Assembly: GCA_963169325.1 (NCBI GenBank)
Contig: CAUJEY010000132.1
Location: forward strand, 1 to 64,000
Length of the DNA: 64,000 nt
Direction of reading: 5' to 3'
DNA from: Bacteroidota bacterium
Lineage (GTDB): Bacteria; Bacteroidota; Bacteroidia; Chitinophagales; Saprospiraceae
Positions 20,966-63,996 of this stretch are shown piece after piece. The stretch's first letter is position 1; each line of letters starts with the position of its first letter. A program made the position numbers and the translations under genes. The notes under the pieces are model-generated. The model was not told the DNA's origin. It worked only from the letters and a program-made list of their open reading frames with translations, and ran no database searches.

Positions 20966-21475
20966 TTAGGTTTTTACGTTCGAAAATTTTTGTTTTAACT
21001 GAAGTTTTATTCTTGAAATTTTGGTAGCGATATTCGTCACGGTCAACCCAAGTATTTCTGCTATCTCCTGTTGACTGTTCTCTTCCAAATAAAGCAGCAT
21101 AATAGCCCGGTCCATTTCCTTCAGTTCCTTTATGAACCGGTGTAGCCGATCCACCTCAGCGTCTAACTCGCCCGTGTTTTCTGCCTCATACAGGTGAAGA
21201 ATTCCATCGGATAAGGGTTGGCTGATTTGATCTCTGCTATTTTCTTTTCTGTAAAAGGAAATGGAAACGTTCAACGCAATTCTGTACATCCAGGTGGTCA
21301 GCTTAAATTTTTCATCATAATGATGGAAGGAAAGCCATAACTGAAGGATGATCTCCTGAATCAGGTCCTTTCGATGTTCCGAATTTTTGCAATAGGAGTT
21401 GGCTATTTTGTAAATAATACCCTTGTTTGCTTCTATTACGGTCAGAAAAGTTTGCGCATCTCTTTTTAAAGACAT
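20966..21475 (-). CDS. ECF-type RNA polymerase sigma factor
   Basis: Region 2 KDLIQEIILQLWLSFHHYDEKFKLTTWMYRIALN and region 4 helix-turn-helix. Confidence 0.9.
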   Translation of the reverse strand: MSLKRDAQTFLTVIEANKGIIYKIANSYCKNSEHRKDLIQEIILQLWLSFHHYDEKFKLTTWMYRIALNVSISFYRKENSRDQISQPLSDGILHLYEAENTGELDAEVDRLHRFIKELKEMDRAIMLLYLEENSQQEIAEILGLTVTNIATKISRIKLQLKQKFSNVKT

Positions 21476-21595
21476 CGTTTTTAAAATTGACGTTTTGTAA
21501 CCCACGCCCTGAATTGGATATTGTGGTTTTCCTGATTATTCGCAAGAGGTCTGGAAATATCACACTTAAAGAAGAATTTTTATTCACCTTTTCGA

Positions 21596-21633
21596 TGTCC
21601 GCCTACGCACACCCGCCTGTCCGAAAACGAACA
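21596..21633 (+). promoter_or_regulatory. Two tandem dyads TGTNCG-N4-CGNACA, candidate enhancer-binding-protein sites
   Basis: TGTCCGCCTACGCACA (21596) and TGTCCGAAAACGAACA (21618), 22 bp apart. Confidence 0.65.
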
Positions 21634-21685
21634 TCCCCACACGATACACTATCTCAAAAATTTGATTATCAGCAACATACATCAC

Positions 21686-21700
21686 TGGCATGGCAATTGC
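21686..21700 (+). promoter_or_regulatory. Sigma-54-like -24/-12 promoter
   Basis: TGGCATGGCAATTGC matches TGGCAYG-N4-TTGC; 46 nt before ATG. Confidence 0.65.
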
Positions 21701-21745
21701 CGCAAACGACCAAAGTGTGAAAACAATTGACAATCCGGCTAAGCT

Positions 21746-24217
21746 ATGTTACAAAATTATCTGAAAATCGCCCTGCGCAACCTCTGGCGCAACAAATCTC
21801 AATCCGCCATCCTTATCGGCGGTCTGGCAGCGGGCATGGGCGCTTGTATGCTATTGTTGCAATACGTCAGTTTCGAGTTGAGTTTCGATGATTTCCACGC
21901 GAAAAAAGATCGCATCTACCGGGTGGTCAACGAACGTATACAGGACGGCAAAACCATCCAAAAGGGCACCATTACCTACCCAACGATCGGAGCGGCGATG
22001 GCGAAAGATTTTCCGGAGGTAGCCAATCATACCCGGATCATGCAAGGCGGTGAAGTATTCGTCCGGCACGAGGATAAACTGGCGTTGCAGGAAGGTTTTC
22101 TCTGGGTGGATGAGCATTTTTACGAGATTTTCGATTTTCCGATGCTCGCCAAATCAGACGACGGTTTTTTGGCGGAACCAAATCAGGTGGTGCTCACCCG
22201 CAGCGTCGCCGATTTTTATTTCCCTGGCGCAAAAGGAGACTACCAAACGGCAATTGGCAAGATTGTGTTCCTGGAAACGGACAATAACCCGTACAAAATC
22301 GCCGGGGTCTGCGAAGACGTACCGGCCAATTCGTTGTTGCAATTCAAGGCCCTGGGCTCCTATGCCTCCGTTATCCGGCGCGCGGGCAAAGAGGCTGACG
22401 AAAGTTGGACCTGGTCGGATTTCTGGCATTATATCGAACTGAAACCCGGCGTCGATGCCGCCGCGCTCGAAGCCAAATTCCCCGCCTTCAGCAACCGCTA
22501 CTTTCGGGGCACGGAAGTGTCGGGAAGTCAGGAAGTATTTACCCTGCAACCCCTGAAAAAAGCGCACTTGTACTCTGCCGGACTAGAATACGAGATCGGC
22601 GAAACGGCCAATGGCAGGGCGGTGTGGTCGCTGCTTATCCTCGCATTTTTTATTCTCGTCATTGCCTGGATCAACTACGTCAACCTCTCTTCCATACGGG
22701 CGATAGAACGGGCCAAGGAAGTAGGGGTGCGAAAAGTGGTTGGCGCCAAACGGAGTATGCTCATGGGTCAGTTTCTGACGGAAGCACTGCTGGTGAATAT
22801 GCTGGCGTTGTTGTTCGCATGGTGGGGCGCGGCAATGCTCAAACCCTGGTTTGCCGCCAACTTCGGGCTGGACGCTTCAGCCTTGCAATTTGCCACGGCA
22901 AACAACTGGTTCATCCCGGTCTCCATGCTGGGACTGGTACTGGCCGGCGTGCTGGTATCCGGCTTTTACCCGGCCTGGTTGTTGTCGGCGCCGCATGTTG
23001 CCAACGTGCTGAAAGGTAATTTCCGCTCCTCCTTTACGGGCGCGGCGGGCGGTGGCGGGCAGTTGCGCCAAGGTTTGGTTGTGTTCCAGTTCACCGCTTC
23101 CATCGCTCTGATCACAGCCACCTGGCTGGTCTCCAGGCAAATCGATTTTATGAACAAACAGGACCTGGGCATCAATATCGACCAGGTCGTGACGATAGAC
23201 GGGCCGAGACTGACCGGCTGGGACAGTACTTTCATCACGAAAATGAATGCTTATAAAGCAAAACTGCTCACCAATCCGCATGTTAAAAGCGGCGCCACCT
23301 CCAACCACACCATAACCGACGACCAGCAGGGCCGGATTTTTCAAATTGAAAAAAAGAGCGACAACCCTTCTAAAGAGCAATACACCAGCAGCTTCATGAT
23401 GACGGATTTCGGCTATGCCGAAACGTATGGCATCAAGCCGCTCGCAGGCAGGTTTTTTTATGAAACCGATCATAACCCCGACTTCGATAAACTCGACAAA
23501 ATCGTGGTGACGGAGACAACGGTAAAAATGTTCGGTTATGCCTCCCACGAAGCCGCCATCGGTCAAACCATCAGGTACTGGGACCGGAACTGGACCATTA
23601 TAGGCGTGCTGCCCGATTACCACACGAAGTCGTTGCACCATGCAATCGAGCCCCTGATTTTTATGCCGGCTTATTCCTCGGGCAACAAACTGTCGCTACT
23701 GCTGGACGGCAATGACATGGACGCGACCATCGGTTTCATTCAGGCCACTTTTCAGGAATTTTTTCCCGGCAATGCGTTTAGTTATGAATTCCTGAACGAG
23801 GCTTATAGCAAACTCTATGAAGCCGATGCCCGCTTCGGGAGAATTCTCGGCTTTTTCACCTTGCTTACGATCCTGATTGCCTGCCTCGGCTTATTCGGGC
23901 TGGCTTCGTACACGACGTTTTTAAGAAAAAAAGAGATCGGTGTGCGTAAAGTACTGGGCGCCTCCACGGCTGGCATCGTTGCGCTGCTGTCGAAGGATTT
24001 TTTGAAATTAGTCCTTTTGTCATTGGTCATTGCGTCGCCGGTGGCCTGGTATTTTATGCACCATTGGTTGCAGGAGTTTCCATACCGGATCAACATCGAA
24101 TGGTGGGTATTTGCCCTGGCGGGTGTTTCGGCCCTGGCCGTGGCGTTTCTGACGGTGGGCGCACAGAGTATGAAGGCGGCGTTGGAGAATCCCGTGAAGG
24201 CGTTGCGGAGCGAGTGA
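21746..24217 (+). CDS. ABC transporter permease, MacB/FtsX type
   Basis: LKIALRNLWRNKSQSAILIGGLA, two FtsX domains (AKEVGVRKVVGA; KKEIGVRKVLGAS), C-terminal NPVKALRSE. Confidence 0.93.
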   Translation: MLQNYLKIALRNLWRNKSQSAILIGGLAAGMGACMLLLQYVSFELSFDDFHAKKDRIYRVVNERIQDGKTIQKGTITYPTIGAAMAKDFPEVANHTRIMQGGEVFVRHEDKLALQEGFLWVDEHFYEIFDFPMLAKSDDGFLAEPNQVVLTRSVADFYFPGAKGDYQTAIGKIVFLETDNNPYKIAGVCEDVPANSLLQFKALGSYASVIRRAGKEADESWTWSDFWHYIELKPGVDAAALEAKFPAFSNRYFRGTEVSGSQEVFTLQPLKKAHLYSAGLEYEIGETANGRAVWSLLILAFFILVIAWINYVNLSSIRAIERAKEVGVRKVVGAKRSMLMGQFLTEALLVNMLALLFAWWGAAMLKPWFAANFGLDASALQFATANNWFIPVSMLGLVLAGVLVSGFYPAWLLSAPHVANVLKGNFRSSFTGAAGGGGQLRQGLVVFQFTASIALITATWLVSRQIDFMNKQDLGINIDQVVTIDGPRLTGWDSTFITKMNAYKAKLLTNPHVKSGATSNHTITDDQQGRIFQIEKKSDNPSKEQYTSSFMMTDFGYAETYGIKPLAGRFFYETDHNPDFDKLDKIVVTETTVKMFGYASHEAAIGQTIRYWDRNWTIIGVLPDYHTKSLHHAIEPLIFMPAYSSGNKLSLLLDGNDMDATIGFIQATFQEFFPGNAFSYEFLNEAYSKLYEADARFGRILGFFTLLTILIACLGLFGLASYTTFLRKKEIGVRKVLGASTAGIVALLSKDFLKLVLLSLVIASPVAWYFMHHWLQEFPYRINIEWWVFALAGVSALAVAFLTVGAQSMKAALENPVKALRSE

Positions 24218-63238: not shown

Positions 63239-63276
63239 TGTCCATCTCCGCACGCCCGCGTGTACGAAAACGAACA
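63239..63276 (+). promoter_or_regulatory. Tandem dyads upstream of second FtsX-like permease
   Basis: TGTCCATCTCCGCACG (63239, degenerate) and TGTACGAAAACGAACA (63261), 22 bp apart. Confidence 0.6.
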
Positions 63277-63329
63277 TGCGGGCCTCGCAAACCAATTCCA
63301 AATATTTGATTTTCAGCGCCATATCCGGA

Positions 63330-63344
63330 TGGCATGGCAATTGG
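63330..63344 (+). promoter_or_regulatory. Sigma-54-like promoter
   Basis: TGGCATGGCAATTGG; 38 nt before ATG 63382. Confidence 0.55.
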
Positions 63345-63381: not shown

Positions 63382-63996
63382 ATGCTGAAAAACTTCTTCA
63401 CCCTCAGTTTCCGACGGCTCTGGAAAATGCGCAGCTATTCGATCATCAACATCGGCAGAATGGCCGTAGCCATCGCCGGCGGACTGCTGCTTTTTAGCCA
63501 TATTCAGCACGAACGAAGTTTCGATACTTGGCATACCAATGCCGGTCGTATCTACCGGCTGAACATCGGAAGTTTTGACAACGATGCCCGCAGCGCCGTG
63601 TCGTCGGGTGCAATGGCCCCGGCTTTTGCGGGCGATTTTCCAGAAATTGAACATTTTACGCGCTTCCGGCAATTTCCTTCGCTCGTGAAAAGCGGCGGTA
63701 CCCGGTTCTATGAAGACGGTTTTTATTACACCGATTCCACCGTTTTCGACGTATTTGATTTTAGATTGAAAGAAGGCAATCCGGCTTTGGCGCTGGCACA
63801 GCCCTTCAGCATTGTGCTGACCGAAGCAGCCGCCAAAAAATACTTCGGCGACCAACCGGCCATCGGGAAACAGTTGGAAATCGACAACCGGTTTTCGTTT
63901 CAGGTCACGGGTGTTTTAGCGCCCGTCCCCGAGAATTCTCATTTCAAATTTGATTTTTTAGCCTCCGTTTCTTCGCTGCGCCAGCACCCCGACTAG
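63382..63996 (+). CDS. ABC transporter permease, MacB/FtsX type (N-terminal part, cut at or near the window edge)
   Basis: MLKNFFTLSFRRLWKMRSYSIINIGRMAVAIAGGLLLF...RSFDTWHTNAGRIYRL; start trimmed from 63334. Confidence 0.82.
   Translation: MLKNFFTLSFRRLWKMRSYSIINIGRMAVAIAGGLLLFSHIQHERSFDTWHTNAGRIYRLNIGSFDNDARSAVSSGAMAPAFAGDFPEIEHFTRFRQFPSLVKSGGTRFYEDGFYYTDSTVFDVFDFRLKEGNPALALAQPFSIVLTEAAAKKYFGDQPAIGKQLEIDNRFSFQVTGVLAPVPENSHFKFDFLASVSSLRQHPD

Follow-up and report, generated by a model that had tools for sequence, protein, structure and literature searches.

The 105-bp element that precedes an FtsX/MacB-type permease gene in the window (the whole stretch of DNA that was analysed, 64,000 nt in length) is best explained as the enhancer and promoter of a gene that belongs to an autoregulated sigma-54 efflux regulon, a reading to which, on the basis of sequence comparison, we assign a probability of about 85%. 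A family of export permeases appears to be controlled here by one dedicated pair consisting of a sensor kinase and a sigma-54 activator.

Results

An earlier note, made from the letters alone, had described two dyads with starts 22 bp apart, a shared block behind them and a sigma-54-like box 68 nt after the start of the second dyad. The dyad letters and their spacing proved to be exact, the box is a perfect match to the sigma-54 pattern TGGCAYR-N4-TTGC at the claimed distance (Table 1), and the shared block, AAATTTGATTATCAG, is real, as the whole element recurs at 63239–63344 in the same window. Transcription would be expected to start near 21711–21712.

Table 1. Positions of the two elements and of neighbouring genes in the window
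Feature	Position	Strand	Remarks
Gene of 223 aa	20289–20960	−	no Pfam or NCBIfam match; next to the ECF gene
ECF sigma-70 factor gene	20966–21505	−	Sigma70_r2 and Sigma70_r4_2
Upstream dyad, TGTCCGCCTACGCACA	21596–21611	+	TGTCCG-CCTA-CGCACA; enhancer half 1
Downstream dyad, TGTCCGAAAACGAACA	21618–21633	+	TGTCCG-AAAA-CGAACA; enhancer half 2; spacer of 52 bp to the −24 box (spacing class 51–55)
IHF-like box, TATCAGCAACATA	21667–21679	+	core of the shared block; fits WATCARNNNNTTR at 8 of 9 positions; 19 nt before TGG
Sigma-54 −24/−12 promoter, TGGCATGGCAATTGC	21686–21700	+	TGGCATG-GCAA-TTGC; exact consensus
Duplicated FtsX/MacB-type permease, 823 aa, ADOP-like	21746–24217	+	MacB_PCD ×2, FtsX ×2; ATG at 21746
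Open frame of 3091 aa	26005–35280	−	adjoins the window permease
Second element, upstream dyad, TGTCCATCTCCGCACG	63239–63254	+	
Second element, downstream dyad, TGTACGAAAACGAACA	63261–63276	+	
Second element, IHF-like box, TTTCAGCGCCATA	63311–63323	+	7 of 9 positions; 19 nt before TGG
Second element, sigma-54 box, TGGCATGGCAATTGG	63330–63344	+	
Truncated permease remnant behind second element	63382–63996	+	MacB_PCD

The composite of dyads and box is far from chance. Taken by itself the −24/−12 box carries no significance, since lone boxes are about as frequent as in the control: box-like 15-mers with at most two mismatches number 26 in the window against 46 expected and are thus not over-represented, and the 8.07-Mb assembly has 19 exact matches to TGGCAYGN4TTG, compared with 15 on one strand and 16 on the other when the pattern is reversed, which made the box alone unproductive as a search for regulon members. 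The genome search for dyads together with the box, proposed in the earlier note, returned four exact matches of the composite pattern against none in the control, and a profile-independent pattern scan of the fetched loci found 74 places against none in the reversed sequence. In the intergenic region before the window permease there was no Rfam match. A sigma-70-like scan gave no matches on the plus strand.

An alignment of the window permease to the ADOP family TIGR03434 extends over almost the whole length (277.4 bits, positions 5–803 of 803) and stays below the cut-off of 622.3, so by this comparison it is a relative of ADOP and not a member. The permease gene and the gene for the ECF sigma-70 factor are transcribed divergently from a common intergenic region, and the 223-aa product encoded next to the ECF gene could be the cognate anti-sigma factor. 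The long open frame on the opposite strand adjoins the permease gene from the other side. The remnant behind the second element runs into a stop after 204 aa from its ATG and is followed by a gene on the opposite strand; the promoter element in front of it is intact.

A genome profile, made from sequence only and built from eight sites, found 11 sites at E < 1e-3 (six of them not among its input); the next match, at 0.23, is well separated from these. The first gene behind every one of these sites encodes either an FtsX/MacB permease (9) or an HlyD adaptor (2). There are 19 long duplicated-permease genes in the genome, defined as open frames of 771–910 aa with MacB_PCD, and 17 of them lie directly behind a site or within a co-directional run behind one; the two without a site are on contigs C122 and C300. 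The region C145:12300-46000 (L265, L266) holds one HlyD adaptor gene followed by nine duplicated permease genes, with one heading element that has a 64-bp spacer; no ATPase gene was seen in this run, where the adaptor gene is followed by a gap of about 0.96 kb. The proposal that the permease is under a dedicated sigma-54/bEBP regulator is supported, a probable activator having been found, with the refinement that the regulator would be dedicated to 11 or more transcription units and not to this permease alone.

As for the regulators, the genome contains the rpoN gene that the earlier note called for, a 540-aa open reading frame with a Sigma54_AID match (E 5.6e-13) and an RpoN-box-like ARRTVAKYRE stretch, and it encodes three strong enhancer-binding proteins (bEBPs; C124, C240 and C288). 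The search for the cognate bEBP led to a probable activator on C124, located in an operon with the same promoter. The order of this master operon is HlyD, TolC, ABC ATPase, permease, permease, NtrC-type response regulator and kinase, and the element at its head consists of TGTCCGAAACCGGGCA, 53 bp and TGGCACGCCGCTTG. The response regulator (L024:8705-10087) has the domains Response_reg, Sigma54_activat and HTH_8, that is, a receiver, an AAA+ domain and a Fis-type helix-turn-helix. The C240 protein is devoid of a helix-turn-helix and that of C288 is unlike. By these features the C124 activator is likely to be the regulator of the sites. Its sigma-54 contact loop reads GAFTDA instead of the usual GAFTGA, as it does in nearly all activators of this family; this variant occurs in other bEBPs and was reported to be compatible with activity (PMC4641369), and the corresponding change in NorR, G266D, frees the protein from its sensor domain while promoters are still opened (PMC2941729). 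Judged by hydropathy, two membrane helices joined by a loop of a few residues are present in the kinase in 19 of the 19 cases read. The 64-bp long-spacer sites present in this genome belong to a type that elsewhere often accompanies a second activator clade. A second activator for such sites was sought in this genome and not found; it could be missing, since the assembly is about 97% complete.

The relatives' profile, built from 18 sequences, was searched in 100 genomes of the taxonomic family. Sites at E ≤ 1e-3 are present in 49 of them, with up to 30 per genome. Counting activators among the matches listed, a site at E ≤ 1e-6 occurs in 36 of the 38 genomes with a clade-A or clade-B activator and in 2 of the 62 without one (Fisher p = 2e-22 over the 100 genomes, uncorrected for kinship), where such small p-values show the direction only, because genomes and sites are related to one another. 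Forty sites were fetched in relatives, all outside the training set, and the first gene behind them encodes HlyD (22), FtsX/MacB (11), an ABC ATPase (4), a BlaI-type repressor (1) or other proteins (2). Thus the expectation that the motif precedes FtsX/MacB permeases holds in the wider sense of permease or adaptor at 11 of 11 sites in this genome and, ATPases included, at 37 of 40 in relatives. The three sites before unrelated genes (L123 of relative G018, L131 and L135) front the BlaI-type repressor gene, which adjoins a gene for a large membrane protein, and genes for two small proteins.

The arrangement of site and activator is found again in relatives: in clade A the site lies several kb upstream of the activator gene, and in the second activator clade (about 45% identity) it lies in the region divergent from that gene. 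Of 198 genomes from the wider phylum, 34 have a match at E ≤ 1e-5. The activator is found in Runella, Dyadobacter, Spirosoma, Larkinella, Mucilaginibacter, Pedobacter, Pontibacter, Hymenobacter, Bacteroides and Parabacteroides, among others, and at greater distance in Zixibacteria, KSB1 and Gammaproteobacteria; many of those Bacteroidota, as well as the KSB1 and Zixibacteria loci, have a matching site upstream of the activator gene.

The distances from dyad to TGG fall into the classes 44–46, 51–55, 63–66, 72–76, 85–87 and 95–97, about 11 bp apart, with the gaps empty except for two values of 31, and their best period is 10.8 bp. Paired dyads, where detected, are mostly 21–22 bp apart. Among the 40 fetched sites, those with clade-A-type adaptors have 51–53 bp and those with clade-B-type adaptors 54, 62–66 or 75. 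A rule of one spacer per activator clade is not upheld generally, the operons of Pontibacter and Hymenobacter having 65 and those of Bacteroidales 44–46.

The shared block is best read, from its letters and its position, as an IHF-like bend site. In 45 of 74 promoters WATCARNNNNTTR is matched at 8 or 9 of its 9 positions by a box 17–20 nt upstream of TGG. Shuffled sequences give a mean of 0.8, and at other offsets in the same promoters the matches number 0–4. Since some loci had been picked with a model containing the IHF-like block, subsets chosen without the model were tested as well, and the box is present there in 12 of 28 and 13 of 19 promoters (shuffled means 0.3 and 0.2). In some promoters it is weak, as in the master operon (6 of 9). 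The HU/IHF-family genes of the genome comprise one clear match (C2) and one weak one, matches by which IHF and HU are not told apart.

Discussion

The promoter logic, which combines an enhancer, a bend site, a sigma-54 box and an activator, is well supported by these comparisons. In the proposed circuit the NtrC-type response regulator of the master operon would bind both dyads, and a protein of the HU/IHF family would bend the DNA at the IHF-like box, bringing the enhancer-bound activator to sigma-54 RNA polymerase at TGGCATG-N4-TTGC, where ATP hydrolysis would open the permease promoter. The activator would receive its phosphate from the histidine kinase encoded beside it. With two membrane helices and almost no loop between them, this kinase may sense damage to the membrane or the condition of its own ABC transporter. 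Once active, the circuit would switch on at least ten further units, mostly permeases, and it would be autoregulated, because the same promoter heads the operon encoding the adaptor, the outer-membrane channel, the ATPase, two permeases, the activator and the kinase. We infer that the exported substrates are probably peptides or other envelope-active compounds from the kinship of the transporter parts to MacB, darobactin-export and ADOP proteins, all of it below the family cut-offs.

It is conceivable, if improbable, that the dyads bind another protein, such as a repressor or a one-component regulator, and that some other enhancer-binding protein acts at the sigma-54 box. The dyad pattern TGTNCG-N4-CGNACA, here a predicted binding site, is a palindrome of a generic kind, and the genome does contain two further bEBPs, but these lack a helix-turn-helix or have a different one. 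The dyads, moreover, are spaced from the sigma-54 box in helical phase, stand at the head of the activator's own operon and track the activator family over 100 genomes (activators among the matches listed). Control of the permease by the divergent ECF sigma factor, with the sigma-54 resemblance being secondary, seems quite improbable: the two genes do have their intergenic region in common, but the element points toward the permease, ten further copies of it in the genome stand in front of permease or adaptor genes, and inspection of the neighbouring genes in the loci read revealed no recurrent ECF pair.

We give still less weight to a chance resemblance or to functionless copies inherited through gene duplication. 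The permeases are paralogues along with which the upstream DNA could have been copied, and in the window the gene behind the second copy is truncated. Against this, the element is kept while the DNA between its boxes differs, the spacings jump by helical turns, and in other genomes the unrelated HlyD and ATPase genes are fronted by the element too.

Promoters of the NtrC, NifA and NorR type have upstream enhancers and are bent by IHF. Those described here resemble them in the upstream dyads, in the bend-like site between the enhancer and the −24/−12 box and in an activator with receiver, AAA+ and Fis-type domains, and differ in the closeness of the enhancer to the promoter, the one-turn steps of spacing, the control of export permeases and the GAFTDA loop. 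The regulator BceR of the Bce modules of Firmicutes is of the OmpR type. In these modules (BceRS–BceAB) a kinase without an outside domain is typically found beside an FtsX-type exporter, and the transporter is needed for signalling (PMC3023708). The present system likewise has an ABC exporter with an FtsX-fold permease beside a two-component system, whose kinase has no outside sensor domain, as in BceS. Its NtrC/sigma-54 regulator, its HlyD and TolC partners, its MacB_PCD permeases and its multi-unit regulon set it apart from the Bce family, to which it does not belong, yet by analogy it may work in a Bce-like manner. A Gram-negative counterpart of Bce is a tentative idea and rather less than an even bet; in it the ABC transporter would serve as its own sensor through the intramembrane kinase, wired to sigma-54 and not to an OmpR-type regulator, and would turn on a set of duplicated permeases that lack ATPases of their own and may have the master operon's single ATPase in common. 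That ATPase resembles DarD/LolD and the adaptor resembles DarC/MacA, both below the Dar and MacB equivalog cut-offs.

In Bacteroidia, sigma-54 promoters were found by statistical means to be enriched upstream of COG0577 FtsX-like permeases, which was called the first evidence there (PMC12316311, 2025). The promoter class, the permease family and the phylum are the same as ours, and the text of that paper makes no mention of IHF or of upstream activator sites. Our analysis adds the enhancer, its phasing, the IHF-like box, the activator, the kinase, the autoregulated master operon and a list of units for one genome. Beyond that paper, our literature search, in which few subscription papers were covered, found no account of a sigma-54/MacB regulon with its activator, nor a description of the enhancer, the activator, the kinase or the phasing. 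In Flavobacterium psychrophilum, of the same phylum, which also has −24/−12 promoters and three bEBPs, the genes named behind such promoters are those of chaperones, proteases, gliding and exported proteins (PMC9723704), unlike the permease and adaptor genes behind our sites. Since the promoters of that species serve other functions, the efflux regulon would be one branch of sigma-54 use in the phylum.

The circuit had thus been hinted at before only through large-scale statistics. FtsX/MacB-type permeases are numerous in large Bacteroidota genomes, and one readable element would now tell which of them form a regulon. With a probable activator and its kinase named, there may be a direct route to the inducing signal and to the substrates, and the enhancers, placed in one-turn steps of spacing, would make a natural series for studies of DNA looping. 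In this organism, whose lone sigma-54-like boxes are no commoner than expected by chance, the regulon would give sigma-54 a principal task.
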